From the IMG/VR virus record IMGVR_UViG_3300034119_000189, positions 1 through 21,360 of that record: a DNA stretch of 21,360 bases. One strand, given 5' to 3'. The stretch's first letter is position 1, and each line of letters begins with the position of its first letter. A model generated the notes under the pieces. That model was not told the DNA's origin. It saw only the letters and a program-made list of their open reading frames with translations, and searched no databases. Position numbers and translations under genes: made by a program. Shown here one piece after another: positions 520 through 20,856 of the stretch. This DNA comes from a virus.

Positions 520-1042
520 ATATATCTCTCATAACTACCTTGAGGTGCTCAAGTACACTCGACATTTCTTAGATGTGCTCAATATACCAACCTCAATAGA
601 TGCAGATGCAGTTATTAACAATGCTTACTTACACTGTGCAGGACTCAATGCTCAAGATATGACAGAGGATAAGGCTAAGAGCTATCTACTCAACACTATT
701 AAGTGTGATCTTATCTGGACTCAAGGCTCTAAGACTAAGAAACAAGATTTGTACAGGTCTCAAGAGTACACAATGGATATCATTGATGACCCTACAGACC
801 TTGAGCACAAGATTGAGATAGAAGATAGGTACAACTTTAAAAAGGCTCTTGTTGAAATATACAGAACAGAGCAAAAGGATAGAATAAAAAAGATAGTATT
901 TGAGGCATATTATGACAAAGGGCACTCAACTCAGACTGCACTCGCTAAATATTTTAACATTAACAGTACATCTGCCTACTTCCTGATTAAAGAAATTAAA
1001 GAAAATATAAATCAAATACAATATAGGTATGAGGAATGCTAA
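500..1042 (+). CDS. Sigma-70-like / helix-turn-helix transcription factor
   Basis: A 180-residue protein from the ATG at 500. A GTG at 452 would add 16 residues but deepen the overlap with the preceding gene. Residues about 10-70 form a helical block resembling sigma region 2, with an aromatic, acidic pattern and then AKSYLLNTIKCDLIW. After an acidic linker (about 95-112), residues about 128-170 look like a region-4 helix-turn-helix: KIVFEAYYDKG, then TALAKYFNINSTSAYFLIKE, the usual recognition-helix layout. The size fits an extracytoplasmic-function-type sigma factor. A phage sigma factor would redirect host RNA polymerase to phage promoters. The first copy of the TACAATATAGGTATG motif lies within its last codons (1017-1031). 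The domain call is by pattern, not by a database match. A plain HTH regulator or a terminase-like DNA binder are alternatives. Confidence 0.6.
   Translation: MKEHLDRYISHNYLEVLKYTRHFLDVLNIPTSIDADAVINNAYLHCAGLNAQDMTEDKAKSYLLNTIKCDLIWTQGSKTKKQDLYRSQEYTMDIIDDPTDLEHKIEIEDRYNFKKALVEIYRTEQKDRIKKIVFEAYYDKGHSTQTALAKYFNINSTSAYFLIKEIKENINQIQYRYEEC
1017..1031 (+). promoter_or_regulatory. Start-codon-embedded 15-mer motif, copy 1 (putative late promoter)
   Basis: TACAATATAGGTATG, whose ATG is the start of the small membrane gene at 1029. The copy lies inside the 3' end of the sigma-like gene, so it also encodes part of that protein's C-terminal QYRYE. TACAAT ends 7 nt before the A of ATG, the normal distance from a -10 box to a transcription start. 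Confidence 0.7.
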
Positions 1043-1190
1043 TTTTTTAGGCTTAATGACTTACATAATGGCCTTTGGAGTAGTGATAGCACTGTGGAAT
1101 GAAAACACATATTTGCTATTTAAGTTCTCAAGCATTACCTTAGCACTATATTTAGTATTCATAATAATTAACGAATATGAGCAACTTTAA
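1029..1190 (+). CDS. Small two-segment membrane protein, unknown
   Basis: A 53-residue ORF beginning at the ATG of motif copy 1 and ending with TAA at 1188-1190. The protein starts MRNANFLGLMTYIMAF. It has two hydrophobic stretches (about residues 7-23 and 34-48) joined by a short polar turn containing NENT, which is a typical hairpin-type small membrane protein. It overlaps the sigma-like gene by 14 nt and the following gene (ATG 1177) by 14 nt, each in another frame, which is the tight packing seen elsewhere in this region. The start-codon motif shared with four unrelated genes is the strongest support that it is translated. The role is unknown; a holin-like or superinfection function is possible but nothing shows it. 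Confidence 0.65.
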   Translation: MRNANFLGLMTYIMAFGVVIALWNENTYLLFKFSSITLALYLVFIIINEYEQL

Positions 1191-1443
1191 AATTAAAACA
1201 GAATACATTGACAAAACTGTCAGAGTATATGATCGCATCTTAGGACAACGTTCTATTGTAGTGGCTAAGATTGACATGAGCAAGGTGAAGTACTACCAAT
1301 CTATTGGACTATCTTACCTATTCGAGGAAGTACCTACAGTTATCAAATATGAGGCAGTTGAGCCACCTATCCCAGCTGAGTCAGTAGAGGTAGCACCTAA
1401 AAAGAAACGTAAGAAAAAACCTGCTCAAGATGGGCAAGCATAA
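1177..1443 (+). CDS. Small protein with basic C-terminus, upstream of terminase genes, unknown
   Basis: An 88-residue protein from an ATG overlapping the end of the preceding small gene by 14 nt. The first 55 residues look like a compact alpha/beta fold (FKIKTEYIDKTVRVYDRILG, then a YYQSIGLSYLFEE segment). They are followed by a proline/valine/glutamate-rich linker and a strongly basic tail with PKKKRKKK (about residues 75-82). The tail could bind nucleic acid or the capsid interior. The 3' end overlaps the small terminase start by 14 nt, so it is probably translated with it. I do not recognise a family. A packaging accessory role is an inference from position. Confidence 0.55.
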   Translation: MSNFKIKTEYIDKTVRVYDRILGQRSIVVAKIDMSKVKYYQSIGLSYLFEEVPTVIKYEAVEPPIPAESVEVAPKKKRKKKPAQDGQA

Positions 1444-1843
1444 ATACATAGAGACTCCTGAGAAAATGTGGGAGCTATTTGAAGCCTACAGAGATTGGTG
1501 CAAGTCAAACCCAAGATATCAATACTCACTTTCTACTAAAACAGGGGAGGCTACTGCTATCCCATTGGAAAGACCACTTATTTTTGAAGGGTTCTATAAT
1601 TATTGCTATGATAAGATAGGATGTATAGATCAGTATTTTGAGAATAGAGATAGGAGATATTCTGAATATGTTGCCATCTGTTCGCGTATAAAGAGAGTCA
1701 TCAGAGAGGATCAGATTACAGGTGGAATGGCAGGGCAGTATAATCCTTCCATAACTCAAAGGTTAAATGGATTGACTGAGAGAGTAGATACTACCACTAA
1801 GGGAGAATCTATCAATGAGATTAAGGTTAATATTATTAAGTAA
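1430..1843 (+). CDS. terS: Terminase small subunit (DNA-packaging gp3-like)
   Basis: A 137-residue protein beginning MGKHKYIETPEKMWELFEAY. It contains a central RPLIFEGFYNYCYDKIG stretch and a C-terminal part with the pattern GQYNPSITQRLNGLTER. This layout matches the gp3-like DNA-packaging proteins that act as small terminase subunits in many Bacteroidota phages. The N-terminal helices recognise the packaging site and the protein hands DNA to the large subunit. The large subunit gene follows directly, which supports the call. The ATG at 1430 overlaps the preceding gene by 14 nt. No pac or cos site could be identified. Confidence 0.75.
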   Translation: MGKHKYIETPEKMWELFEAYRDWCKSNPRYQYSLSTKTGEATAIPLERPLIFEGFYNYCYDKIGCIDQYFENRDRRYSEYVAICSRIKRVIREDQITGGMAGQYNPSITQRLNGLTERVDTTTKGESINEIKVNIIK

Positions 1844-1867
1844 TATAACCTATAAGATATATATTAA

Positions 1868-1891
1868 CTATACTACTAATAAGTGGTATAG
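1868..1891 (+). other. Hairpin in the gap between the terminase genes
   Basis: CTATACTAC (1868-1876) can pair with GTGGTATAG (1883-1891) over 9 bp with one G.T wobble, around a TAATAA loop. No T-tract follows, so it is not a rho-independent terminator. It ends 17 nt before the preferred ATG of the large terminase. A role in mRNA processing or in setting the subunit ratio is possible. Confidence 0.45.
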
Positions 1892-1908
1892 CCAAACCTT
1901 TGCCTAAA

Positions 1909-3057
1909 ATGGAGCTAAACAGTACAGTGATATTCGAGAAGAACCATGATGCACTCAATTCAGATGTGAGGTTTATAATCAATGAGGGCGGCTCAAGGAG
2001 TTCTAAGACCTACTCACTATGCCAGCTCATCATAGTCTACTGCCTACAGAATAGAGGCAAGGTAGTGAGCATCATTCGTAAAACATTCCCAGCATTGAGA
2101 GCTACAGTGATGAGAGACTTCCTTGAGATCATGAAGAGCCTTGAGATATATGATGTGAACAGTCATAACAAATCAGAGCACATCTACACTTTTAGCAATG
2201 GCAGCATAGTTGAGTTCTTTTCAGTGGATGATGAGCAAAAGATAAGAGGTAGGAAAAGAGACCTGGCATGGTGCAATGAGGCTAATGAGCTATACTATGA
2301 TGACTTCACTCAGTTGAACATGAGGACAGAGGGTAAGCTAATCTTTGACTACAACCCATCTGAGTCTAACTCATGGCTGTATGAGTTACCTGCAGATGAG
2401 AGCATACTCATCAAGTCAACGTACAAGGACAACCCATTTCTACCTGAGTCTATTAAGAAACAGATTGAGGACTTGAAACGAACCGATGAGGCACAGTATC
2501 AAATCTATGCATTAGGGGAGAAAGCCATATCCAAGAGTAACATCTACTCCAATTGGACATTTGTCAAGCACAGGCCTGCTAAGTTCACCTCATTTGTCTA
2601 TGGCCTTGACTTTGGTTATAATCACCCCACTGCATTGGTGAGAGTATATTGGAGAGATAAGGATCTATACATTGAGCCTATCATCTATGAGAGTTACTTG
2701 ACTACCACTGACCTCATAGCAAGGATGGATCAGTTAGGCATTGAAAAAAGCATCAACATCCTTGCTGACTATTCAAGGCCTGAGATTATTGCTGAGATAG
2801 ACAGAGCAGGTTACTATATTGAAAATGCTAATAAGGTAGTCAAGCAAGGTATTAATAACATCAAGTCCTTTGGTATATTCTGTGAGGACCATCCTCAACT
2901 TAAGAAGGAGTATGAGAATTACAAGTGGAAAAAGATAGGTGATACCATTACAGATGAGCCGGTCAAGTTATGGGATGATGCAATGGATGCCATCCGATAT
3001 GCTGCCACTCATATCAAGGAGGAATACTTTACAGATGATTCATATATGTCCTTCTAA
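1909..3057 (+). CDS. terL: Terminase large subunit (ATPase and nuclease)
   Basis: The motor that cuts concatemeric phage DNA and pumps it into the prohead. The ATG at 1909 gives 382 residues; an in-frame TTG at 1900 would add only three. Walker A is GGSRSSKT (residues 27-34), the SRSSK variant common in phage terminases. A Walker-B-like stretch RDLAWCNEANEL lies at about 117-128, with the catalytic acidic residue in NEANE. The C-terminal RuvC/RNase H-like nuclease shows YGLDFGYN with D234, ILADYSRPE with D287, and WDDAMDAIRYA with D356, D357 and D360. The length is slightly short for the family but both domains are complete. It follows the small subunit after a 65-nt gap holding a hairpin. 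Confidence 0.93.
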   Translation: MELNSTVIFEKNHDALNSDVRFIINEGGSRSSKTYSLCQLIIVYCLQNRGKVVSIIRKTFPALRATVMRDFLEIMKSLEIYDVNSHNKSEHIYTFSNGSIVEFFSVDDEQKIRGRKRDLAWCNEANELYYDDFTQLNMRTEGKLIFDYNPSESNSWLYELPADESILIKSTYKDNPFLPESIKKQIEDLKRTDEAQYQIYALGEKAISKSNIYSNWTFVKHRPAKFTSFVYGLDFGYNHPTALVRVYWRDKDLYIEPIIYESYLTTTDLIARMDQLGIEKSINILADYSRPEIIAEIDRAGYYIENANKVVKQGINNIKSFGIFCEDHPQLKKEYENYKWKKIGDTITDEPVKLWDDAMDAIRYAATHIKEEYFTDDSYMSF

Positions 3058-3074
3058 CAGGATGCCAACTGAAA

Positions 3075-3089
3075 TACAATATAGGTATG
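3075..3089 (+). promoter_or_regulatory. Start-codon-embedded 15-mer motif, copy 2
   Basis: TACAATATAGGTATG in the 29-nt gap after terL. Its ATG starts the gene at 3087. The three preceding bases are AAA, as in copy 1, giving an identical 18-mer. Confidence 0.7.
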
Positions 3090-4586
3090 GCAATGACAAT
3101 CATAGCAGAACCTCAAGATTTCACTCCTGCTTACAATGAGTGCAAGTTCATAGTTAACTCAACTAATGTCAACAATGATGGCTTCCGATATATCTTTGAG
3201 ATATTTGAGTCAGGCACAGCCAATAGGATAGGATACTATAAGGCACTGCCTACCTATGGCACAGGATATGGGGAGCAGGACTTGAGCAAGCTATTGAGCA
3301 ACATGGTAAGCTATGACTTCAATCCCACAATCACAACCTTTTATGATGCGGCTAACTCATATTACAAGTTTGATGTTAAGATAGGTGAGGAGTATATCTA
3401 CACATTATCTTACACAGCTTCATTGGTGAACAATGGAGGCAATGTACGCATCACAGCAACTCATGCCTTTCAAGTTGGTGATCAGATAAACATAACACAG
3501 GCAGATGGAGGTGTGGCCAACCCGGGAGTGGAAGGATTGCACACAGTGATTTCAATCACAGGCACAACTAACTTCACTATCAATGCTTTATGGTCAGAGG
3601 TAACAGATGCCACTATCAATGGAAGTATCAAGTATGCTGACAATAGGAAGGACATCAACCTCAATGAGATTAGCACCTTAGATAAGTATGTATTCAATGG
3701 AGCTATTCCTTGGATAGATATGCCATTCTATGATCAGACTGACTACACACTTGATAACACATCTGGACTGTGGCTCACTGACCAACCTTTGAACTTTACA
3801 TGTACACTTGGTCAGGACTTATGGCTCAACTTCAAGGATGTGGGCATAGGATCTAACAAGAGGGTGTACTTTATTAATGATGACGGGGATGTGTTCTACA
3901 AGTCAGTGAGTGGACTTGACTATATTAAAGGTGTGGCAGTTGGTCCTAATAACTATGGCTCACTTACCTTAGTGAGTGGCACTGCTCCACTTGTAAAACA
4001 GGATACTAAGTGGTACACAGTAACTTATCGAGATGGCTCTCCCGGATTCATTGACCCTAAGTCAGTGAGTTACAAGGTGAACATAGATACAAGGACATTA
4101 ATCTCTGAGAGTCATATCTTATTCTTAGATAGGATGGGCTCATGGGGTAGCTTTGCCTTCCAACTTAAGAGCTATGAGAAGGGCACAATCAAGAGGGATA
4201 CATACAACAAGGATGTCCCGGGATATGTCACCTCATCTCAATGGAAGTATAAAACTTATGAACAAGGTCAAGTTAATTTCAACACTCAAGTAGTTAAGAC
4301 ATACGACCTCAACACTAACTGGATGAGTGAGGCAGAGGGTACATACTTTCAGCAGTTGTTAACTTCTCCACAAACCTATGTTAAAAACGTAGTGTATCGT
4401 ATTACAGAGGACTTGGATAATCTTTATGATGAGAGTGGATGTATCATACATATCCCTGAGTCAACTGAGTATGTGAGCTGTAATGTGCTTAACACAAACT
4501 TTGAGGTATATAAGCAACGCAACAACAACCTAATCAAGCAGTCAATCCAAGTAAGGTTATCTAATAACGATATAATCAATGGTTAA
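3087..4586 (+). CDS. Large beta-rich virion protein, probable distal tail / baseplate component
   Basis: A 499-residue protein starting at the ATG of motif copy 2. It is rich in Asn, Thr, Tyr and aromatic-Gly turns and has no signal peptide or membrane segment, as in beta-sandwich structural proteins. An internal segment at about residues 110-190 (TASLVNNGG, FQVGDQINIT, TTNFTINALWSEVTDATINGS) resembles an inserted beta-sandwich decoration domain. The C-terminal third contains NWMSEAEGTYFQQLLTSPQ, a pattern I associate with structural proteins next to tape-measure genes in Bacteroidota phages. It overlaps the following gene by 8 nt. Assignment to tail rather than head rests on being the first of a cluster that contains the tape measure. 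The exact role is unknown. Confidence 0.6.
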   Translation: MAMTIIAEPQDFTPAYNECKFIVNSTNVNNDGFRYIFEIFESGTANRIGYYKALPTYGTGYGEQDLSKLLSNMVSYDFNPTITTFYDAANSYYKFDVKIGEEYIYTLSYTASLVNNGGNVRITATHAFQVGDQINITQADGGVANPGVEGLHTVISITGTTNFTINALWSEVTDATINGSIKYADNRKDINLNEISTLDKYVFNGAIPWIDMPFYDQTDYTLDNTSGLWLTDQPLNFTCTLGQDLWLNFKDVGIGSNKRVYFINDDGDVFYKSVSGLDYIKGVAVGPNNYGSLTLVSGTAPLVKQDTKWYTVTYRDGSPGFIDPKSVSYKVNIDTRTLISESHILFLDRMGSWGSFAFQLKSYEKGTIKRDTYNKDVPGYVTSSQWKYKTYEQGQVNFNTQVVKTYDLNTNWMSEAEGTYFQQLLTSPQTYVKNVVYRITEDLDNLYDESGCIIHIPESTEYVSCNVLNTNFEVYKQRNNNLIKQSIQVRLSNNDIING

Positions 4587-7365
4587 GATAATACTTGAGA
4601 CAGGAGTCTTAGATGTATCTGAGAAGACTAATTTTCCGATAACATTTAACATTGGTGATATTAGAGATTTAACATCTCGCAAAGGAACTTTTTCTAAAAC
4701 CATTGTCCTTGAGGGAACTAAGAACAATCATGAGTTGCTTGGGAATTACTATGATGTAAATATTCAAGCTGGAACATTTAACATCAACACGTTGACTCGA
4801 TGTCAAGTGATACAGAATGGAGTGCCTATCTTAGATGATGCACTGCTACAGTTGGTAAGTGTTAATAAGTCTCAGTACACTAATGCTTATGAGGAGGAGG
4901 TTAACTATACTGTATTGATTAAGGATAGCAGAGCTGAGTTTTTTAGTGCTATCACTAATGCTAATCTTGATGACTTAGATTTCTCAGACTTAGATCATAC
5001 ATTCTCATCAACTGATATAGCAGCTACATTCAGCAACACTGTAACAGATGGATATAAGTACGTGATGCCATATTGCACAGGTACTAATGTCTATCAAGCT
5101 AATGAGTTCAAACCTGCTATCTATGCTCAGACTTACTTTGATAGGATATTTGCTGTGGCTGGATTCACTTACACATGGGCAGGATTAACAGATGCTCACT
5201 TTGATAAGTTGTTAATACCTTACAATGGGGATGTTAATAACTTTGATTACAATGACTATAGAGTTGAGGCAACAAACACATGGACAACAAGTTATGTACA
5301 GGGCACAGGAGTGAACTATACCTTCCAAGAGGATATTGACTCTGGATGGACAGAGGTGATTGACACTCAGAATTTATATGACCCTTTAACAGGGGAGTAC
5401 AGTTCACCATTTAGCACTAATGCTCTTGCAGGTGAGAACTATACATATGAGCTACAGATTGGAGGCAGTATCATCCTTGACAATAATAGTGGAGGTAATG
5501 CAGTCCTTGAGTATGTAGCAGGAGGATACATAGTTAAAAATAAATATAGGGTATTTGCTCAGGTATATGTGGCAGGGCTTGGCAACGTAAAGGTGTATGG
5601 CACAACAAGTGGAGTAGCTTACTATCCTGCAGCATCACCATTACCAACAGGCAACACTACTATATTGACCTTTGCTGAATCTCTTAGCATTCCTGCATTA
5701 ACAAATGACCCTTTCAACTTAGCAATAGACCCTAATGACATACAGATATTATCTATAGGAGTTGAGGTAACTCAGACCTATGGTAGTGCTAACAGTAATG
5801 GAGCTAATATTTGGATTGCAGCAGGTGGTGGTTTCACTCCTGTAGATGTCAATGTTGTGCTTGACTTAGTATCTATCAACATGGTGATACTGCCAAGCAA
5901 TAATGTGCAGACTACAGGAGGGACTCTAATCATGAACTCTTATGTTCCTGTAGAGATTAAGCAGTCTGATTTTGTTAAGTCAATATTTCAGATGTACAAC
6001 TTATATGTTGAGCAAGATATTGACAATCCATACAACCTTATACTAAGACATCGAGATGAGTATTACGACTCAGGAGCTGAGAAGGATTGGAGCCAGAAGT
6101 TAGCTAAGGATAAGGCTCAAGAGTTGATGTTCCTTCCAGATGTAACTAAGAAAAAACTTAAGCTCACCTATGCACCGGATGAGGATCAGTCTAATGTACT
6201 TTACACACAAGCTACAGGAGAGATTTATGGTCAGATAGAATACACCTTTGACAATGAATATGTTAAGGATGTAGATACTAAGGAGCTATTATTCTCACCT
6301 ACTCCTGTGTATAAAACATTATTCGGAGCTTATGTTCCTGCAATCAATGGAGCTGCACCTAATACTAACATCCGTATCTTATATGATGGAGGATTAGGTA
6401 CATGCCAACCATTTGACATCATAGACTTTGGCACAACAGGAGAGATAGGCTTGACTGACTATCCTATGATTGGTCATTTCAATAATCCATTGTATCCTAC
6501 ATTTGATATTAACTTTGGCACGAATGATTACTACTTTTATGAGGTAGCAACTCTGACAGCTAACAACCTGTATAACTTATATTGGAGAAGGACTGTTAAT
6601 CAAATCAATGTAGGTAAAATGTTGATAGCTTACTTTGACTTGAATGAGGTTGATATACAATCTTTAAAGCTCAATGATAAGATTTACATTGACAATTCAT
6701 GGTGGAATATAAACAAGATTCAAGATTACAATGCTAACAACAACAGCCTCACAAAGGTAGAGTTGATAAGTATTGATACTGAGATTGACTTAGCACCTTA
6801 TAAGACTGCAGGCGGCAAGCCTATTGGAGATACTATTGTGGCAGTTGGTAATAATGAGGTGTTCAAACAGAGTGCTCAAGTTAATAATGTAGTGGTGCCC
6901 GGATCAGATGTTCTAATCTTTGGTAAGGGCAACGCTGTGAGTCCAGGTGTTAAGGGAGTAGTGATTGGAGATGGTCAGACCTTAGAGAGTGATGGTATGG
7001 TAGTACCTAACTTGACAGTGACTGAGAGTATTAATGGAGCTCCTGTTGTAGGGTATAAGAAATATATTGCAACTATTAGTCAGACAGGAATATTAGATCC
7101 TACAGTAATTGTACTTGAAAACACAATAGGTGATATTGTATGGTCAAGAGTTGGAGTTGGTCAATATGAGGGTGTGTTAATTGGAGCATTCCCTGATGCT
7201 AATAGAACTTACTTAATGATAAGTCAAGTTAACTCTTCACAAGGTGTTTACTATATTACATGGGTTAATGCTGACAGAATAATTGTTGAATGGTATGACT
7301 TTGCATACACAGGTGGTGATAACACATTATTGAATAACACAATAGAAATTAGAGTATATGAATGA
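4579..7365 (+). CDS. Very large tail / baseplate-type structural protein
   Basis: A 928-residue protein and the largest in the window. The N-terminal 150 residues (about 10-60: DVSEKTNFPITFNIGDIRDL, SRKGTFSKTIVLEGTKNN) follow a pattern common in large tail proteins of Bacteroidota phages, in which the protein binds as a beta-rich platform. The middle (about 240-470) is a Gly/Asn/Tyr-rich beta region that may be a carbohydrate-binding insert. The part around 470-620 (KSIFQMYNLYVEQDIDNPYNLILRHRDEY and onward) has baseplate-hub flavour. It overlaps the gene before and the gene after by 8 nt each, so the three proteins are probably made together. Codon spacing is unbroken and there is no frameshift. 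I infer a distal-tail or baseplate role; enzymatic activity is not evident. Confidence 0.6.
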   Translation: MVKIILETGVLDVSEKTNFPITFNIGDIRDLTSRKGTFSKTIVLEGTKNNHELLGNYYDVNIQAGTFNINTLTRCQVIQNGVPILDDALLQLVSVNKSQYTNAYEEEVNYTVLIKDSRAEFFSAITNANLDDLDFSDLDHTFSSTDIAATFSNTVTDGYKYVMPYCTGTNVYQANEFKPAIYAQTYFDRIFAVAGFTYTWAGLTDAHFDKLLIPYNGDVNNFDYNDYRVEATNTWTTSYVQGTGVNYTFQEDIDSGWTEVIDTQNLYDPLTGEYSSPFSTNALAGENYTYELQIGGSIILDNNSGGNAVLEYVAGGYIVKNKYRVFAQVYVAGLGNVKVYGTTSGVAYYPAASPLPTGNTTILTFAESLSIPALTNDPFNLAIDPNDIQILSIGVEVTQTYGSANSNGANIWIAAGGGFTPVDVNVVLDLVSINMVILPSNNVQTTGGTLIMNSYVPVEIKQSDFVKSIFQMYNLYVEQDIDNPYNLILRHRDEYYDSGAEKDWSQKLAKDKAQELMFLPDVTKKKLKLTYAPDEDQSNVLYTQATGEIYGQIEYTFDNEYVKDVDTKELLFSPTPVYKTLFGAYVPAINGAAPNTNIRILYDGGLGTCQPFDIIDFGTTGEIGLTDYPMIGHFNNPLYPTFDINFGTNDYYFYEVATLTANNLYNLYWRRTVNQINVGKMLIAYFDLNEVDIQSLKLNDKIYIDNSWWNINKIQDYNANNNSLTKVELISIDTEIDLAPYKTAGGKPIGDTIVAVGNNEVFKQSAQVNNVVVPGSDVLIFGKGNAVSPGVKGVVIGDGQTLESDGMVVPNLTVTESINGAPVVGYKKYIATISQTGILDPTVIVLENTIGDIVWSRVGVGQYEGVLIGAFPDANRTYLMISQVNSSQGVYYITWVNADRIIVEWYDFAYTGGDNTLLNNTIEIRVYE

Positions 7366-9928: not shown

Positions 9929-10371
9929 CAAGTTATCAAGCATTAATCAACAAGATAGAGGCATTTTATAACTCACATCTACAGGTAAAAAAAGTAGGTA
10001 GTGACTTCGTGGAGCAGTTACCTAACTTTGCGACAAAGGATGAGAAATATCCTCTTGTGTTTATAGCACCTATCACAGCTATAGCAACTGAGAACACTAA
10101 TACAATGAGCTTAGAGATAACCTGCCTTGACATCATACAAAAGGATAGAGCTAATATCACTGTGATACTCTCAGACTGTCATCAAATATTGGTTGACTTA
10201 GTAAACTATTTTACTTTCAGTGATGATTATAGCTTTGATATCTTAGGACAACCTGCCATAGTGCCATTGAATAATCAAGTGTTAGACTATGCAGCAGGGT
10301 GGGTCATGACATTAGATGTTGACATGAGTAATTGGACAGATTGCCAAGTTCCTATTATAACAGAATCATAA
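9925..10371 (+). CDS. Small structural protein following the tape measure, unknown
   Basis: A 148-residue soluble protein whose ATG overlaps the tape measure stop by 4 nt. The first helix (YQALINKIEAFYNSHLQVKKV) leads into a beta-rich core with hydrophobic strands (YPLVFIAPITAIA, MSLEITCLDIIQKD). It ends with LDYAAGWVMTLDVDMSNW followed by a D-C-x-V-P segment. This layout, with a conserved GW followed by a strand and a cysteine near the end, recurs in my recollection in small virion proteins of Bacteroidota phages, perhaps tail-terminator or neck-like proteins that stack on the tube. Neither identity nor partner can be proven here. It closes the 3087-10371 cluster, since the next gene has its own start motif. 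Confidence 0.5.
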   Translation: MTSYQALINKIEAFYNSHLQVKKVGSDFVEQLPNFATKDEKYPLVFIAPITAIATENTNTMSLEITCLDIIQKDRANITVILSDCHQILVDLVNYFTFSDDYSFDILGQPAIVPLNNQVLDYAAGWVMTLDVDMSNWTDCQVPIITES

Positions 10372-10377
10372 GTTAAT

Positions 10378-10392
10378 TACAATATAGGTATG
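10378..10392 (+). promoter_or_regulatory. Start-codon-embedded 15-mer motif, copy 3
   Basis: TACAATATAGGTATG in the 18-nt gap before the fibre gene, whose start codon is the ATG at 10390. Confidence 0.7.
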
Positions 10393-11577: not shown

Positions 11578-11589
11578 TAAATAAATAAA

Positions 11590-11856
11590 ATGGCAACAGA
11601 TAACGAAATTTTAATAGCAGGTCAAGGTACTTATATCTTGAATAATACAACTGAGTTCACAGGTAACTTTGATGCTATTGTGGTTCTTGAGGACACTGTG
11701 TTTAATCTTATTAAGATAGCAGCAGTTGATGTTAAGTCAACATACATAGCAGCTACAGGAACAGCAGTTAAGGCAGGTGCTATCATAAGACCTACTAAGG
11801 CTCAGAAGTTTAGTGGTGTTAAGTTAACAAGTGGATCAGTTACTATTGTATTATGA
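11590..11856 (+). CDS. Small beta-rich virion-associated protein
   Basis: An 88-residue protein, all beta in appearance: alternating hydrophobic strands such as EILIAGQGTYIL, FDAIVVLEDTVFNLIKIAAV and FSGVKLTSGSVTIVL. There are no cysteines, membrane segments or signal peptide. The short form ending in hydrophobic V-T-I-V-L is common in small proteins encoded between fibre genes, where they may cap or decorate the fibre. It has its own A-rich leader (ATAAATAAATAAA) 13 nt after the fibre gene and overlaps the next gene by an ATGA. Function is inferred from position only. Confidence 0.55.
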   Translation: MATDNEILIAGQGTYILNNTTEFTGNFDAIVVLEDTVFNLIKIAAVDVKSTYIAATGTAVKAGAIIRPTKAQKFSGVKLTSGSVTIVL

Positions 11857-12674
11857 TTGGTTACGGGAATAGTATGTTTTTAGCAACACATGGAATATTA
11901 GCAAGGTCAGGCGGTGGCGGTGGATTTGACCCCGATGCACAAGCATTTATAACAGCGGCTGGAATAACAAACCCTACTCAACAAGCGGCAATCAATACTT
12001 TGGTAGTTGATTTGAAAGGGTATTCTATTTGGACTAAGATGAAGGCTTTGTATCCTTTTGTTGGGGGAACAAGTACAAGTACAAGTTATAACCTTAAAAA
12101 TACAGCGCAATATCAAATTGCTTGGAATGGTGGATGGACTTGGAATAGTAATGGTGTTACGGGTAGTGTAAATGGTTGGGGTAATACAAGTCTAATTCCT
12201 AATTCTGCATTAACCTTAAATTCAACTCACCAATCTTTGTATATTAGAAATACGGGTAATTTAGGTACTGATGATTTTGGGGCTGCCACAAATGGAACAA
12301 CTTCTTTAATGAGAATTATTGTAAAAGATAGTGGAACAAATAACCATATTGTAGACCATTATGCAACTGCTCAAAGAATTACAGGAACAGTAGCGAATTC
12401 AACTGGGTTCTTTGTTGTATCAAGGGAAAATTCAACGTCTTTAAAATCAAAAAGAAATAATGTTTCTTTGGGTACAAATACAAGTTCTAATACGGGAACA
12501 CTACCAACTTACGCACTATATTTAGGAGCATTAAATAATGCTGGTAGCGCAGTTAATTACACAGCAAGAAACTATGCTTTTGCAAGTGTTGGTGACGGCT
12601 TAACAGACACAGATGCAACCAACTTATACACAGCTGTACAAGCATTTCAAACAACTTTAGGACGTCAAGTATGA
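11853..12674 (+). CDS. Probable receptor-binding / tail tip protein
   Basis: A 273-residue protein. An N-terminal glycine hinge (SGGGGGFDPDAQAFITAAG, about 19-37) leads into a helical stretch about AIN-TLVVDLKGYSIWTKMKALYPFVGG (about 45-71). The rest is a Ser/Thr/Asn/Gly-rich beta domain, with NLKNTAQYQIAWNGGWTW at about 81-98, that looks like a concanavalin-type or lectin-like sandwich. This N-terminal block followed by a variable beta domain is a recurring form in Bacteroidota phages, and I associate it with host-range proteins. A run of ACAAGT units encodes a TSTST stretch near 12069-12086. By eye the gene uses AAT for Asn more heavily than its neighbours, so it may be a transferred module. 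Receptor binding is an inference. Confidence 0.55.
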   Translation: MIGYGNSMFLATHGILARSGGGGGFDPDAQAFITAAGITNPTQQAAINTLVVDLKGYSIWTKMKALYPFVGGTSTSTSYNLKNTAQYQIAWNGGWTWNSNGVTGSVNGWGNTSLIPNSALTLNSTHQSLYIRNTGNLGTDDFGAATNGTTSLMRIIVKDSGTNNHIVDHYATAQRITGTVANSTGFFVVSRENSTSLKSKRNNVSLGTNTSSNTGTLPTYALYLGALNNAGSAVNYTARNYAFASVGDGLTDTDATNLYTAVQAFQTTLGRQV

Positions 12675-12922
12675 AACTAACACAACTAACAACAGAACAA
12701 AAGACTACCTATGTCGGATTATTAACAGAGGTACAAAAAGACGAATTAGTCGGTCAATGGTATGCACCAGATTCTTATTTTAATCCTATTCAAGATGCTC
12801 AAGATAACTGGGTTATATCAGTTGAGGAAATGGAGCAATGCGTTAATACGTCTTTTCTTTGGGTTAAAGACCTTGAGTTAATACCTTATGAACCAAAACC
12901 AACACCACCACCTTTTGAATAA
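12671..12922 (+). CDS. Small acidic partner of the tail tip protein, unknown
   Basis: An 83-residue protein joined to the preceding gene by an ATGA overlap and to the following gene by TAATG. It begins with a helix (LTTEQKTTYVGLLTEVQKD), has a central WYAPDSYFNPIQDAQDNW segment with a W-V-I-S strand, and ends in a proline-rich tail (YEPKPTPPPFE). Proteins of this layout sit next to host-range proteins and may act as fibre assembly chaperones or tip subunits. The sequence alone cannot say which. It appears to travel with the 11853-12674 gene. Confidence 0.5.
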   Translation: MKLTQLTTEQKTTYVGLLTEVQKDELVGQWYAPDSYFNPIQDAQDNWVISVEEMEQCVNTSFLWVKDLELIPYEPKPTPPPFE

Positions 12923-13359
12923 TGGCACGCTACGCAAATAATGGTATATTCAATGTTAAGTATCCTACAAGGAGGAAGATACAACGCATTCTGCAGCAGA
13001 TAATATCTGAGGATGGTGCTATTGATACAGGAGCTATGTATGACTCAGTGCGTATCAATGCTAAAATCCCTGCATTAGGTGAACTTGAGATACAGATTAT
13101 TGCAATGTATTATTTTGGGTTTCTCAATAATGGAACTATCTACATAACACCTTATGACTTCTGTGCAGAGCTATCCAGGAGATTAGACTCAGAAGGTATA
13201 ACAACAGAAATATATTCTCAATATACTGAATGGATGGTTGAAAGGTATCCTATATTACAAGTGGCAAATATATTAGGGGATAAGCGTTCTATCATTTATA
13301 CATTTGAGCCTATAGGTGGAGATTTCTCAGCTCCTCTATCATTCAGAGGTATGTTATAG
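12922..13359 (+). CDS. Neck / tail-completion protein, HK97 gp10-like
   Basis: A 145-residue protein with RRKIQRILQQIISEDGAID and then TGAMYDSVRINAKI, followed by a strand and MYYFGFLNNGT at about residues 55-65. In HK97 gp10-like tail-completion proteins a similar order is seen: a TGxLxDS motif, a beta hairpin, and a Y-x-x-F/W-x-x-GT turn that joins the neck ring. The C-terminal half is less typical and ends GGDFSAPLSFRGML. It is the last plus-strand gene before a converging minus-strand pair, and its stop codon overlaps the facing stop codon by 6 bp. A role in joining tail to head is inferred from the motifs. Confidence 0.5.
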   Translation: MARYANNGIFNVKYPTRRKIQRILQQIISEDGAIDTGAMYDSVRINAKIPALGELEIQIIAMYYFGFLNNGTIYITPYDFCAELSRRLDSEGITTEIYSQYTEWMVERYPILQVANILGDKRSIIYTFEPIGGDFSAPLSFRGML

Positions 13360-14085
13360 ATTAAGCTCTTTTTTCATTGACAGCATATTAAATGTAAGGA
13401 TAAGAGGCAGGTCAGTTACTTGCTTAAACTTAGTCAAATCCTCATTACAAAGTGAGTAGAGTAGTCTCTCCCATCCCCATTTCACAGCAGACTTTTGCTC
13501 AGCTTGTGCCTTAGACTCATCGGATGTCATTGGTTTATTTTCATCCTCCTCATCTCCATCCTCCTCATTAAAAAGTAAGTGATACTTATCCATGAAATCC
13601 TGTCTAAATGATAGGTACTCAGGTATGATACCATAGATATCATTGATACAGTACTCATCAAATAGTTCATGCCGGTCAAATGGATTGAACTCATAAGGCT
13701 CAAAGCTCAACTGTCCCCACTCATTAGTGGTATGTTGCCTGTACATGATAGATGCTATATGACAAAGATGCTTAATATAGTCATTGGCAAAGAAATACTC
13801 TAAGTCAATGAACTCACCACAGGTCAGCTTAGATAGTGGCTTGACCTTCCATTGCTCAATGTCTCTCTTGTAGTTCTTAGATGGCTCAGAGTTAATGAAT
13901 GTAATATCATTGAGCATGGCACTAACCTCACTTACATCTAAGTCCTCAAGTTCATCTGAGCTCACTCCTGCAAGAGCTGAGAGTATCTCTATCTCTCTGG
14001 CAAATACCTCCTCAATAGAATATAACTCTCTTATCTCTTTAAACTGCAGGACATCAATCTCACTCCACGATTTCGGGAGCTTCAT
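13354..14085 (-). CDS. Reverse-strand protein, possible tail assembly chaperone (downstream member of a paralogous pair)
   Basis: Start at the ATG at 14085 (243 residues); a TTG at 14118 in the same frame would add 11. The protein is helical and acidic and begins MKLPKSWSEIDVLQFKEI. Around residue 195 there is an acidic patch (EEDGDEEDE), and the C-terminal end is KWGWERLLYSLCNEDLTKF and onward to a MKKELNL tail. The first 70 residues resemble those of the upstream gene: PKSWSEIDVLQFKEI against PNQLKELTVQQFEDI, with further parallels. The two are probably an ancient duplication. Its frame is +1 relative to the upstream gene, overlapping by 26 nt. The pairing and its place between tape-measure/fibre and capsid genes suggest a tail assembly chaperone pair, but the family is not recognised. 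Confidence 0.5.
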   Translation of the reverse strand: MKLPKSWSEIDVLQFKEIRELYSIEEVFAREIEILSALAGVSSDELEDLDVSEVSAMLNDITFINSEPSKNYKRDIEQWKVKPLSKLTCGEFIDLEYFFANDYIKHLCHIASIMYRQHTTNEWGQLSFEPYEFNPFDRHELFDEYCINDIYGIIPEYLSFRQDFMDKYHLLFNEEDGDEEDENKPMTSDESKAQAEQKSAVKWGWERLLYSLCNEDLTKFKQVTDLPLILTFNMLSMKKELNL

Positions 14086-14608
14086 TTTTCTTGATTTCTT
14101 TGGACAGTTTTTGTCCAATTTCTACTAAGTAAGGAACTGCTAACTCTGACTTGAGCTCTCTTATCATCTTTGCCTTATGCTTGATGTGAGTAGTATCATA
14201 GTGTTCTGCCTTGCTTAGATCATCTCTCTTGAATAAGATAGCTAACATCTCAGAGATGTATCCTTTATGCCTTGAGTTCATGACCTTCTCAATATGCTTA
14301 GTGTCTCTCACTGATAACTTGAACTCCTCACCTTCAAAGGCAGTGTAGTTATAACCATCAAGCTCAATAGTTGACTGTAGTTCTGGCTTACCTTTGATGT
14401 TGTTAAAATCCTTGACATAAGTTTTGAACTGTTCAATGGTGGTGTCCTCAAAGTCATTCTCAGTGATACCAAACAACTCAAATACTTTAAGATGTTTCTC
14501 AATAGCATCTAAGTCCTGTTGTGCATGGATAGATGTGATATCCTCAAACTGTTGCACTGTTAACTCCTTCAATTGATTAGGAATTTCTTTGTCTAAAATT
14601 TTTACCAT
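14060..14608 (-). CDS. Reverse-strand helical protein, possible tail assembly chaperone (upstream member of the pair)
   Basis: A 182-residue protein read leftward from the ATG at 14608. It is helical and charged with the pattern PNQLKELTVQQFEDI (residues 10-24), then FELFGITENDFEDTTIEQF, and a C-terminal KMIRELKSELAVPYLVEIGQ stretch. The first half is similar in layout to the start of the downstream gene. The stop at 14060 lies inside the downstream gene, so the two are probably translated in succession. A TATATTTG (14632-14625 read on this strand) 17 nt before the ATG could be the -7 box. The role is unproven. In many siphophages a chaperone pair precedes the tape measure, and here the pair sits on the opposite strand. 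Confidence 0.5.
   Translation of the reverse strand: MVKILDKEIPNQLKELTVQQFEDITSIHAQQDLDAIEKHLKVFELFGITENDFEDTTIEQFKTYVKDFNNIKGKPELQSTIELDGYNYTAFEGEEFKLSVRDTKHIEKVMNSRHKGYISEMLAILFKRDDLSKAEHYDTTHIKHKAKMIRELKSELAVPYLVEIGQKLSKEIKKNEAPEIVE
14100..14118 (-). other. Perfect hairpin in the overlap of the two reverse-strand genes
   Basis: TTGGACA (14100-14106) and TGTCCAA (14112-14118) form a perfect 7-bp stem with a 5-nt loop. On the transcribed strand the loop is AAAAC, part of a CAAAAAC run. The stem lies 14 nt before the ATG of the downstream gene, so it could affect coupling or frameshifting. Confidence 0.5.
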
Positions 14609-14624
14609 AGATTTTAATTTTTAA

Positions 14625-14632
14625 CAAATATA
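14625..14632 (-). promoter_or_regulatory. Possible host-type -7 box for the reverse-strand genes
   Basis: Read on the minus strand this is TATATTTG, which matches the Bacteroidota -7 consensus TAnnTTTG. Its 3' end is 16 nt before the ATG at 14608, so the leader would be about 10 nt and A/T-rich. No convincing -33 TTTG is seen at the usual spacing, so confidence is low. Confidence 0.35.
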
Positions 14633-14640
14633 ACACTATT

Positions 14641-14655
14641 TACAATATAGGCATG
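14641..14655 (+). promoter_or_regulatory. Start-codon-embedded 15-mer motif, copy 4
   Basis: TACAATATAGGCATG, differing from the other four by C for T just before the ATG. The ATG (14653) starts the protease/scaffold gene. The copy lies next to the possible minus-strand promoter in a 44-nt divergent gap. Confidence 0.65.
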
Positions 14656-15636
14656 GATAGACCTGTCTATAAGATAACTATTGACCCTGAGTACTCTGAT
14701 GGGGAGGAGTTAGGTATTGAAATGATTGCCTTCACTGCCAAGCCTGCTATTAAGGTAAAAGGTATGGCATTCAATCAAGCTACTCCAATGACCTTTAAGG
14801 ATGATATTAAGATGAGAATTGTAGCACCTGCTATGATACCAATGTCAATATATCGCAGAGATGAGGATGGCACTGAGTATGATGTGCTATTCACAGAGGA
14901 GGTCATTGAGTCTATTCATGCTAAGTTCATGCAGAACCTACAAAACAAAGATATCTTTAACTTAGAGCATGAGGCAGAGGAGAAAGTTCCTGCTTACATC
15001 CTTGAGGCTTGGATAGTTGAGAGCCCTAAAAAGGACAAAGCATTCACTACCTATGGTATTGAAGTACCTAAAGGAACTCTAATGCTAACAAGTCAAGTAA
15101 CTGATAAGGAGTACTATGATAGCCTTGTTGAGTCAGGTCAAGTAGGTTACTCTATTGAGGGATTCTTAGGACTTAAACTATCGGAATTATTAAAACTAAA
15201 TACAATGAAGTTACCTGATGGAGAACATCTGATCGAGGATAAAATCTATGTCGTAAAAGATGGAGAAGTTATCGAGATCAAAGACAAAGAAGAACTGGCA
15301 GCAGAAGAACCTGCCACAGAAGAGGCTGAGCAAGAGGCTGAGGCTACAGTTGATGAAGCTGCTGAGGATGTGCAAGAGGAGGAGGCAGATGCTGCCGCTG
15401 AGGATGTTGAGATGGCAGTTGACCCAACTACTGATGCTGAGGCTGTACTTGCAATAGTATCACCTGTGATTGAGGAGCAAGTTAATCAACTACTTGCTAT
15501 CATAGCTGACCTTAAGAACCAAATGGAGGAGTACTTAGCTCCAAGAGATGAGGAGATTGAGGTTGAGGCTAAGAACCAAAAGATGAGCTCAAGGGAGCTA
15601 TTTAAAGAATTTGTAAAATTTTCAAAAACCAAATAA
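14653..15636 (+). CDS. XkdF-like prohead protease fused to an acidic scaffold domain
   Basis: A 327-residue protein starting in motif copy 4. Residues about 60-175 match the phage XkdF serine protease pattern: YRRDEDGTEYDVLFTEEVIE, then FNLEHEAEEKV with H106, EAWIVESPKKDKAFTTYGIE, and the GQVGYSIEGFL block with S167. H106 and S167 are the likely catalytic pair. The C-terminal part (about 210-300) is a very acidic Ala/Glu coiled region and looks like a scaffolding segment, so one protein may both template and mature the prohead. The C-terminus is short and basic (FKEFVKFSKTK), which would suit binding to the capsid protein encoded 1 nt downstream. This combined protease/scaffold form is known in other phages. 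The autocleavage site is not visible. Confidence 0.75.
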   Translation: MDRPVYKITIDPEYSDGEELGIEMIAFTAKPAIKVKGMAFNQATPMTFKDDIKMRIVAPAMIPMSIYRRDEDGTEYDVLFTEEVIESIHAKFMQNLQNKDIFNLEHEAEEKVPAYILEAWIVESPKKDKAFTTYGIEVPKGTLMLTSQVTDKEYYDSLVESGQVGYSIEGFLGLKLSELLKLNTMKLPDGEHLIEDKIYVVKDGEVIEIKDKEELAAEEPATEEAEQEAEATVDEAAEDVQEEEADAAAEDVEMAVDPTTDAEAVLAIVSPVIEEQVNQLLAIIADLKNQMEEYLAPRDEEIEVEAKNQKMSSRELFKEFVKFSKTK

Positions 15637-15637
15637 A

Positions 15638-16570
15638 ATGAACCGTAATTTAAAATTTAATTTAGAGGTTGAGACTAACGCATTATTGTGTGCCAACCCT
15701 GAGGAGTTCTACTCCAAAGCATATCTTCAATCAGAGGATATTGCATCTAACTTTCGCTCTTTGCCAGGCATCAAGTCTAAGACTAAGTTAGCTAATGTAA
15801 CTTTTGGTAACATCTTACAAGCATCTACTTGTAATTTCACTGCTCCTAATGATTCATTAGATGCAGTGGATATTGATGTATGTCCTTTGTCAGCTATGGC
15901 TCAATTATGTCAGTTTGACTTAGAGCAATCATTCTTAGCATTGCAAATGGCAAAAGGATCTAATGGTGATTTCACTGTTGCATCTTTTATGTCATACTAC
16001 TGGAATGAAATGGCATTGACTATCGGTCAAGATATCGAGTTGTTGAGATGGCAAGGTAACACTGAGTCTGAGGATCCATTGTTGTCTTTATGTACTGGAT
16101 ACTTATTTCCACTGTTCTATGATACAGATGTAGTTGGTTTATATGATGGTGCTATTGATACATCAAATGTACTTGACCAATTGAGTGCTGTACTTGCTGC
16201 TGCTCCTTCAACTATTAGCAGAAGAAAATCAGAGTTAAGATTTTATGTATCTACTAATGTAGCTAACGCTTATGAGCTTGCTGCTGCACAAGGTAACACT
16301 TTGACTTATGTTACTACTCCATTAGGTTTAACATTCTTAGGAATCAATGTAGTTGTGTGTGAAGGGATGCCAGATAACACTATCTTGTTGACTTTGAGAA
16401 ATAACCTTATCTATGCATTTGATGCAGAGGGTGATGACAAAGCATTGAAAGCTGTTAACTTATCTGACACTGTAGCTGAGCCTTATTTGAGAACTCGTGC
16501 TAACATGAAAGTAGGATTCCATTATGTTAACCCTGCAGAGATAGTATTGTATAACGCATTCTATATCTAA
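15638..16570 (+). CDS. Major capsid protein
   Basis: A 310-residue protein. No membrane segment or signal peptide is present. The call rests on its place right after the protease/scaffold, its length, the A-rich leader ATAAA before the ATG as in strongly expressed Bacteroidota genes, and a sequence that fits an HK97-type subunit. That sequence has an N-terminal arm (to about 60), a central helix (about 125-145 with FMSYYWNEMALTIGQDIELL) and a C-terminal strand-rich part ending RTRANMKVGFHYVNPAEIVL. Codons for Leu, Ala and Thr show a preferred-codon look. A terminator-like hairpin with a GAAA loop follows. HK97 fold is inferred and was not tested. Confidence 0.7.
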   Translation: MNRNLKFNLEVETNALLCANPEEFYSKAYLQSEDIASNFRSLPGIKSKTKLANVTFGNILQASTCNFTAPNDSLDAVDIDVCPLSAMAQLCQFDLEQSFLALQMAKGSNGDFTVASFMSYYWNEMALTIGQDIELLRWQGNTESEDPLLSLCTGYLFPLFYDTDVVGLYDGAIDTSNVLDQLSAVLAAAPSTISRRKSELRFYVSTNVANAYELAAAQGNTLTYVTTPLGLTFLGINVVVCEGMPDNTILLTLRNNLIYAFDAEGDDKALKAVNLSDTVAEPYLRTRANMKVGFHYVNPAEIVLYNAFYI

Positions 16571-16578
16571 AATATAAC

Positions 16579-16602
16579 GGGGGTAGAAATGCCCCCTATT
16601 TT
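16579..16602 (+). terminator. Hairpin with GAAA loop after the capsid gene, possible partial terminator
   Basis: GGGGGTA (16579-16585) pairs with TGCCCCC (16590-16596) around a GAAA tetraloop, with one T.G wobble. It is followed by TATTTTA, a weak T-tract. Because the next gene has no start motif of its own, some readthrough is expected. The hairpin may also protect the 3' end of the capsid message. Confidence 0.55.
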
Positions 16603-16624
16603 AAAACATTAAAAAACAACTAAA

Positions 16625-17146
16625 ATGAGCTGTGCAACTTTAGAAACAATTTTAAAAAGCTGTGACAATAACTCAGGAGGTATCTATAAGTTCTATGTAA
16701 ACCAACAAGATAACATCCAATCTATCTCTACAGATGAGACAGGAACTAATTGGATTGTTGATGGTATTACATTTATACCTACAGCTGACCCCTTCATTGA
16801 GTTAGAGTTCAGAAGAAACGTATCCTCATTTACAGAGGACTCTGCTATTGATTTAATTAATGGCTCAAGCTATGTAACTGCAACTATAAATTTGATGTTC
16901 CATAGAAGAGATCAAGAGAAATCAAAAGCTATTAAAGTATTAGGAGCAGGACAACAGTACTTAGCAGGTATTGTTGAGGATGCTAATGGTAAATATTGGT
17001 ACTTCCCATTTTTGCAATTATCTGCAACAGGTGAAGGATCAGGAACTACAAGAGCAGATGGCTCTAAGTACAGTGTAACACTTGTAGCTGAGAATGAGTT
17101 TTTGGCTTATGAGGTTGATGCTACTATCATACCAAGTCTCCTTTAA
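16625..17146 (+). CDS. Probable major tail tube protein
   Basis: A 173-residue beta-rich protein beginning MSCATLETILKSCDNNSGGI. It has strands such as GTNWIVDGITFIPT, a central RRDQEKSKAIKVLGAG turn and a C-terminal GSGTTRADGSKYSVTLVAEN that is typical of tube subunits in Bacteroidota siphophages as I recall them. Size, beta content and position directly after the capsid gene support a tail tube subunit that forms hexameric rings. The leader AAAACAACTAAAATG is A-rich, as expected for a strongly expressed gene. A minor capsid or decoration protein is the main alternative. A clear terminator follows. Confidence 0.6.
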   Translation: MSCATLETILKSCDNNSGGIYKFYVNQQDNIQSISTDETGTNWIVDGITFIPTADPFIELEFRRNVSSFTEDSAIDLINGSSYVTATINLMFHRRDQEKSKAIKVLGAGQQYLAGIVEDANGKYWYFPFLQLSATGEGSGTTRADGSKYSVTLVAENEFLAYEVDATIIPSLL

Positions 17147-17170
17147 TCTTGCCATAGATTATAAACTAAG

Positions 17171-17195
17171 AGCCTCACTTCGGTGGGGCTTTTTT
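17171..17195 (+). terminator. Rho-independent terminator with TTCG loop
   Basis: AGCCTCAC (17171-17178) pairs with GTGGGGCT (17183-17190), one T.G wobble, closing a TTCG tetraloop with a C-G pair, the very stable cUUCGg form. Six T follow. It ends the 14653-17146 cluster. Confidence 0.85.
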
Positions 17196-17214
17196 AATAA
17201 TTATTTCTTTGAGA

Positions 17215-17229
17215 TACAATATAGGTATG
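17215..17229 (+). promoter_or_regulatory. Start-codon-embedded 15-mer motif, copy 5
   Basis: TACAATATAGGTATG just downstream of the terminator. A TTG at 17209 opens the same frame, but the motif places the true start at the ATG at 17227. Confidence 0.7.
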
Positions 17230-20740: not shown

Positions 20741-20759
20741 TCAATCTATATATACCATG

Positions 20760-20784
20760 AGCCCTACTGCAATAGGGCTTTTTT
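20760..20784 (+). terminator. Rho-independent terminator
   Basis: AGCCCTA (20760-20766) pairs perfectly with TAGGGCT (20773-20779) around CTGCAA, followed by a T-run of six. It closes the 17227-20740 cluster. Confidence 0.9.
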
Positions 20785-20825: not shown

Positions 20826-20856
20826 TTTGCATATATAAAAAAACTTACTAACTTTG
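20826..20856 (+). promoter_or_regulatory. Bacteroidota-type host promoter
   Basis: TTTG (20826-20829), a 19-nt AT-rich spacer and TAACTTTG (20849-20856), which is a full match to the Bacteroidota -33/-7 consensus. Expected start of transcription is about 20862, giving a leader of about 20 nt before the ATG at 20882. A weaker pair, TTTG 20782-20785 and TATTTTTG 20810-20817, has a 24-nt spacer. Confidence 0.8.

Follow-up and report, generated by a model that had tools for sequence, protein, structure and literature searches.

Why should one 15-mer, TACAATATAGGYATG, stand at the head of five gene clusters in 21,360 nucleotides of viral DNA (positions 1 to 21,360 of IMG/VR record IMGVR_UViG_3300034119_000189, hereafter the window)? 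We think it likely that each copy marks a late promoter in a phage of Bacteroidota and is read by a phage sigma factor, with the 15-mer serving as the -10 and initiator part of a two-part promoter. The motif, a -35 element, retention of the motif at sites without its ATG, constraint at the DNA level, a sigma-like fold, co-occurrence of motif and protein, and their coordinated variation were all established by computation.

Five copies at five cluster starts

The 15-mer is found at 1017-1031, 3075-3089, 10378-10392, 14641-14655 and 17215-17229, exclusively on the plus strand and nowhere else in the window, and a C in place of T in the fourth copy is the sole difference among the five, just as an earlier note on this DNA had reported. 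A scan of the minus strand of the window returned no copy, even with up to two mismatches. In 500 first-order Markov shuffles of the window, the 11-mer core TACAATATAGG averaged 0.04 copies with both strands counted (largest count, 2) and the 15-mer never arose, which bears out the note's view that the copies are far beyond chance. Each motif ATG (1029, 3087, 10390, 14653 and 17227) does open the first gene of a plus-strand run, as had been claimed, and within the window the motif is restricted to such genes.

Copy 1 sits within the final codons of the upstream open reading frame (ORF), 452-1042, and its cluster encodes a 53-aa protein followed by the small and large terminase subunits. Cluster 2 holds long proteins without a named family, taken as tail genes by size and place; cluster 3 has a match to a minor tail protein, cluster 4 has protease-like and virion structural genes, and cluster 5 encodes the portal and the end genes. 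Several promoters of one consensus thus precede structural genes, the pattern of a phage late-sigma regulon, and from this gene content we infer that the clusters are expressed late. The setting of two sites points the same way: site 4 stands in a 44-bp intergenic stretch between divergent genes, and site 5 lies directly 3' of a hairpin with a T run (17168-17193, plus strand, -15.8 kcal/mol, z -5.2), a putative terminator that was found by folding and is not listed by the consensus terminator scan. Both are places that need a promoter.

A second element upstream

The earlier note saw no shared -35-like element, which proved wrong. At exactly -20 from the motif start stand TAAAGA (997-1002), TAACAG (3055-3060), TAACAG (10358-10363), TTAACA (14621-14626) and TAATAA (17195-17200), all on the plus strand, with AAC present at three of the five. 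The element was defined by an alignment of sites from relatives of the window phage, in which a second block with the consensus TTTTAAACAAA covers positions -23 to -13 relative to where the motif begins. That alignment comprised 41 sites, among them one from the distant phage G019; later counts use 40 family sites. Sites were made non-redundant, with less than 75% identity over the upstream 60 nt, and the resulting 74 comprise 40 family sites, five from G019, 28 controls (27 exact 15-mers and one loose-core match, L251) and one that was dropped, inside a gene (L236). The control contigs have no tblastn match to window proteins at E 1e-15.

AACA starts at -19 or -18 in 25 of the 40 family sites and in none of the 28 controls (Fisher 1.7e-8). 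At most two mismatches to TAAACA at -20 were found in 31/40 family sites and 1/28 controls, while at other offsets the number of such family sites averaged 2.6 and never exceeded 10; these figures are to be read knowing that TAAACA was picked from the same sites after the data had been viewed, with the unrelated contigs as the outside control, and that homology between clades links many family sites, which leaves the 40 short of full independence. The non-homologous sites of G020 carry GAAACA, AAAACA, TAAACA, TTTACA and TAAACA, all at -20, and the divergent relative L330 has TAAACA at all three of its sites.

Because copy 1 overlaps a coding sequence, codon usage there could be examined. Across 24 homologues of the encoded protein, 49 columns have an invariant residue (M and W omitted), and in just six of them the codon never varies: CAA, TAT, AGG and TAT within the -10, AAA for K167 (998-1000, frozen in 24/24) within the -35, and one alanine codon. 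The four other invariant lysines of the protein prefer AAG. The 24 sequences are related, so the codon freeze carries no probability value; as judged from this alignment, site 1 is under DNA-level constraint within the gene at both the -10 and the -35.

The motif outlives its start codon

The earlier note treated the ATG as part of the motif, which holds at the five window sites and fails in some relatives. The motif ends exactly at ATG in 128 of 155 distinct contexts; in the other 27 it is followed by TATA instead of TATG, and the start codon lies 27-28 nt from the motif start rather than 12, that is, 15-16 nt further on. The pattern that gave the 74 non-redundant sites demanded [TC]AT after the core, and GGTAAAG-type sites (ATG offset 23) thus fall outside that count.

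Two cases are informative. In neither G008 nor G009 did tblastn (E 1e-3) find a homologue of the gene that opens cluster 1; the promoter is kept, its ATG has become ATA, and a homologue of window gene 1177 follows (49-53% identical). Likewise, the gene that opens cluster 3 found no homologue in G012 at the same threshold, and the promoter, again with ATA, is followed by a homologue of 11590 (74%). Read from the sequences, these are natural deletions in which the second gene is now first. Since the motif is kept after loss of the first gene, the ATG belongs to the gene and not to the motif.

These cases bear directly on the alternative offered by the earlier note, a translation-initiation element. 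Such an element would be a conserved sequence 5' of the AUG to which ribosomes are drawn where the host lacks Shine-Dalgarno sites. Bacteroidetes do lack such sites, and Flavobacterium johnsoniae favours A at -3, -6, -12 and -13 in the parts of the work consulted (PMC6847099); the motif has A at -6, and its usual ending exactly at ATG would fit as well. However, it has G at -3 and T at -12, it is confined in the window to the first gene of each run, and it keeps a -35 at fixed distance. The five sites share no common RNA fold (z only -0.3 to -1.7), and shared RNA structure was rejected as their common feature on these values. A translation element was rejected above all because the motif survives where its ATG has been lost and the start has moved, and we now regard it as very unlikely.

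Variation in concert among relatives

A relative of the window terminase is encoded by 443 viral stretches. In 80 terminase-related loci (1.0 Mb, some of them pieces of one contig), TACAATATAGG occurs 164 times forward and not once in reverse. The search of related phages that the earlier note had proposed found two to six exact copies in 18/18 longer records, always on a single strand within a record. Ten of the 18 are joined records of 27.5-30.4 kb, with short terminal repeats in four. Seven fall short of five exact copies (G007, G009, G010, G011, G015, G016 and G018), and the missing sites were sought in five of these (G007, G009, G011, G016 and G018). Near variants were found in four: TACAATATAGTTATG replaces the motif at site 3 in three records (G009, G011 and G018) and, in G018, at site 2 as well, and TTCAATATAGGGTATG replaces it at site 4 of G007. 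In G016, site 3 was not found, and the record breaks there.

A deeper clade, with terminases 75-81% identical and sigma-like proteins about 47-52% identical to those of the window, keeps TACAATATAGGTATG 3' of the sigma gene and has TATAATATAGG, AATAATATAGG or a similar string wherever else a site was seen. In L330, a contig of a pond metagenome-assembled genome (JAIXRY010000011.1) which a genome scan found to bear a divergent relative of the window phage (sigma 44% identical), all three sites read [TG]ACAATATAAGTATG, a shift also written ACAATATAAG at 3/3 sites. As far as these alignments go, divergence of the sigma-like protein goes along with a joint shift of the motif at its several sites, and concerted variation at unlinked sites points to a single trans-acting reader. 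An unrelated conserved repeat, such as a packaging, recombination or operator site, would account for five near-identical copies; set against the single orientation per record, the place at cluster starts, the fixed -35 partner and the concerted variation, it can hardly be the explanation.

Whole Flavobacterium phage filifjonk9-1 and 49-kb stretches of Chryseobacterium phage MA9V-2 and Tenacibaculum phage pT24 contain no core plus ATG, and a general Bacteroidota phage motif was rejected because all three lack it. No close relative of the window phage was found among the phage records searched. In the terminase search, the best 25 of 1277 rows are 24 Parabacteroides, Bacteroides or Flavobacterium phages and one unnamed, all less than 35% identical, and the full list of 1277 records includes many Vibrio, Streptococcus and Staphylococcus phages. 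The host is probably a member of the Bacteroidota. As a separate observation, a tandem AGTATGAAATATAGGTATTAA repeat at 24232 and 24282 of G025 holds a core-like string with no nearby downstream ATG.

A sigma-factor-like protein before the late region

What could the trans-acting reader be? The gene whose end contains site 1 lies at 500-1042 on the plus strand; the ORF opens with GTG at 452, the start kept in relatives is the ATG at 500, and the product has 180 aa. An AlphaFold model built from a more diverse alignment, an earlier one having been weak in the C-terminal half, has two mostly confident domains, 1-76 and 98-179, joined by a loose linker (mean predicted local distance difference test score, pLDDT, 75.5). 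When the model was compared with the Protein Data Bank (PDB) by Foldseek, 25 of the titles at ranks 1-27 named a sigma factor (best E 1.3e-3); the other two, at ranks 1 and 10, are chains in transcription-initiation structures and are taken to be sigma as well. In a viral structure library, the best match was an unnamed relative (E 8e-11), followed by annotated phage sigma-70 factors among unnamed proteins. A tblastn search of phage records with the protein gave no match. With VIA-align, region 4 aligned with SigH (3mzy) at Z 8.9 (2.3 Å over 74 residues) and with region 4 of sigmaE on -35 DNA (2h27) at Z 7.7, and region 2 aligned moderately with 9n9q_C (Z 6.5, 2.5 Å over 71 residues) and with the SigC -10 domain (2o7g; Z 5.7, 3.0 Å over 68), values to be read with care because Z below 8, or below about 13 for helical bundles, may mean a mere common arrangement. 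It is therefore the uniformity of the structure list, rather than any single Z value, that leads to the sigma reading. On this model the protein has a two-domain sigma-factor-like fold, with a predicted region 2, a linker, a predicted region 4 and nothing else, an architecture like that of extracytoplasmic function (ECF) sigma factors.

Of 28 records that carry the motif, 27 also encode a homologue and only G019 does not, and we infer that this protein is probably the reader of the five late promoters. In the mechanism that we propose, the last gene before the late region would supply a small sigma factor made of region 2, a flexible linker and region 4, with no regions 1.1 or 3. It would redirect the host core RNA polymerase to promoters of the form TAAACA-N14-TACAATATAGGTA, region 4 reading the AAC-type -35 and region 2 the -10. 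A phage-encoded RNA polymerase was rejected as the reader: none of the seven ORFs of 380 or more aa in the 29.7-kb relative G004 matches an RNA polymerase family. Four of them match terminase, portal, methylase and primase, in part by way of their homologues in the window, and the other three, from the tail region, match no named family.

The promoter might instead be read by an alternative sigma factor of the host, for instance a Bacteroidota ECF sigma. AAC in the -35 is typical of ECF sigma factors (PMC4153023, in part), and seven of them are described in the portions consulted on Flavobacterium psychrophilum (PMC9723704). Against this, no CGT box of the ECF type stands in the -10, the sigma-fold gene occurs in 27/27 family records tested, and the motif drifts along with the phage lineage. 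A host reader is, in our estimate, quite unlikely.

Proposed start sites and probable leaderless mRNA

Two promoter sets of phage sigma factors start transcription 6-9 bp past the element (PMC8948821, in the passages available). With 6 nt between TACAAT and ATG, the short end of this range, counting from TACAAT would place +1 on the A of ATG or next to it, whereas with AATATA as the -10 it would fall inside the gene. With +1 at the A after GGT, the -35 hexamer spans -32 to -27. Exact start sites, deduced here from spacing, would thus lie at or within about 3 nt of that A, and where it begins the ATG, the late mRNAs are likely to be leaderless or nearly so. In F. psychrophilum leaderless mRNAs make up 5.5% (PMC9723704, in part), so a leaderless regulon would be unusual. 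A start several nt 5' of GG, giving short leaders, would agree with the displaced starts, which show that leaders occur in relatives; as the TACAAT-ATG gap of 6 nt is already at the low end of 6-9 bp (PMC8948821, likewise), we consider this unlikely, though it is the strongest of the competing explanations.

A distant phage and points against

G019, five of whose proteins are 24-32% identical to those of the window phage, carries TACAATATA[AG][AG]TAT where four of its clusters begin and at one position within an ORF (row 15861), with [GA]AAGCA at -20 in three of the four cluster starts. The fusion of -10 and start codon may therefore be wider than the sigma family of the 500-1042 protein. In G019, a 114-aa protein matches the late sigma family PHROG_234 (E 4.7e-9) and a 185-aa protein has weak region-4 matches; comparison of the sigma alignment with the G019 region-2 protein by hhalign gave no match. 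The region-2-only protein and the weak region-4 protein lie near each other (3350-3694 and 4094-4651; L322/L323), a possible split sigma.

To the cautions given with the -35 counts and the structural scores must be added further results that weigh against the proposed explanation. The five window sites mismatch TAAACA by 1, 3, 3, 1 and 2, a modest agreement within the window alone. The 500-1042 protein has no Pfam or NCBIfam family match and no match to a sigma-70 model, none in PHROGs at 0.001, and no Foldseek match in the PDB below E 0.001; sigma-70 sequence profiles do not recognize it, a profile match being a detection aid and not a defining trait. G019 has the same -10 core yet no homologue of this protein, so the tie between protein and -10 is not exclusive. 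Finally, boxes of the host type, TAnnTTTG, exceed shuffled sequence only moderately, with 46 vs 34 in G004 and 31 vs 21 in the window, or 6 vs 4.5 and 4 vs 2.5, respectively, when TTG is required upstream.

Host-type promoters

Given these counts, the case for host-type promoters rests on place and conservation. After the terminator-like hairpin that closes the late region (20759-20780, plus strand, from the consensus scan) comes TTTG-N19-TAACTTTG (20826-20856, plus strand), of the host type and a candidate promoter of the next operon (ATG 20882). In G004 promoters of this type stand before both that operon and the ERF recombinase gene, and in other relatives comparable sites lie before genes that look alike. 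The TAnnTTTG -7 box is absent from the plus strand at the five motif sites, which do not look like sigma-A promoters; a sigma-70 promoter scan was uninformative (71 found vs 65.6 expected). Together these observations suggest a cascade in which the host sigma-A holoenzyme would transcribe the other, early operons from TTTG/TAnnTTTG promoters and the phage sigma the late genes. The earlier note's proposal, that these are promoters of the phage and that those of its host are built differently, is supported by retention without ATG, the -35 and concerted variation with the sigma-like protein, and also by the terminator and divergent-gene settings and the host-type promoters before other operons.

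One arrangement was seen beside these results. In the stretch 14608-14655, late promoter 4 overlaps a host-type -7 box, TATATTTG, on the minus strand (14632-14625), by 2 nt of its -35; the box is a candidate for the minus-strand gene pair, and the two promoters look mutually exclusive. A TATATTTG-type box is kept in two deeper-clade records. The pair itself, 13354-14118 and 14060-14608, lies within the late region; the N-terminal parts look alike by eye, and neither gene gave a convincing family match.

Comparison with known systems

The T4 late promoter is TATAAATA, used with gp55, and T4 is not known to have a -35 there. An A-T rich -10 and a phage late sigma are the likeness; the window promoters differ in having a -35, and the window protein in having a region-4-like domain, so these are not T4-type late promoters. 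TATAAATA was also not clearly enriched in the filifjonk9-1, MA9V-2 or pT24 sequence examined.

With ECF sigma factors the window protein shares its two-domain size and fold, and its promoters share AAC in the -35; it differs from them in that the -10, TACAATATAGG, lacks CGT and the protein lacks a Pfam sigma-70 match (PMC4153023, as far as consulted). The Bacteroidota sigma-A -7 element, TAnnTTTG, occurs at 20826-20856 and not at the five sites (PMC9723704, in part). phiEco32 gp36 has a single element, tAATGTAtA, alike in being an A-T rich -10-type set with starts 6-8 bp downstream, and lacks both the -35 and the region 4 that the window system has (PMC8948821, in the same passages). A text search located TACAATATAGG in five papers, two of which deal with the phiKZ polymerase; in one of these two (PMC7618050, in part) the string stands at the downstream end of a synthetic template and outside the TATG consensus, and it was taken as chance and a link rejected.

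The nearest parallel is phage 7-11, whose late sigma gp47 reads promoters of the form GTAAtg-(16)-aCTA: both systems, the window one as proposed here, combine a phage sigma and several bipartite late promoters with host core RNA polymerase. The sequences differ, its host is enterobacterial, gp47 was biochemically tested while the putative window sigma is known from sequence and model, and the passages of PMC8948821 mention no leaderless architecture. In the portions of the open-access literature covered (on the 11-mer, on late promoters of phages that infect Bacteroidota or give leaderless mRNA, and on phage sigmas), no description of this system was found. A bolder version, to our minds possible but doubtful, is that a profile-invisible phage sigma drives a regulon whose initiation site is the start codon, that most late mRNAs are leaderless, making the late switch also a switch of translation mode, and that the G019 lineage, with its possibly split sigma, reached or kept the same fusion of -10 and start codon. 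If so, the late switch would favour ribosomes that accept leaderless mRNA, in a host group with few such mRNAs, and the system poses the question of leaderless translation in bacteria without Shine-Dalgarno sites. Phage sigma plus late promoters is a known kind of system, of which the window pair would be a new variant: a late transcription switch proposed from sequence alone for a group of phages matched by hundreds of viral contigs, and one that could offer an orthogonal promoter system for Bacteroidota.

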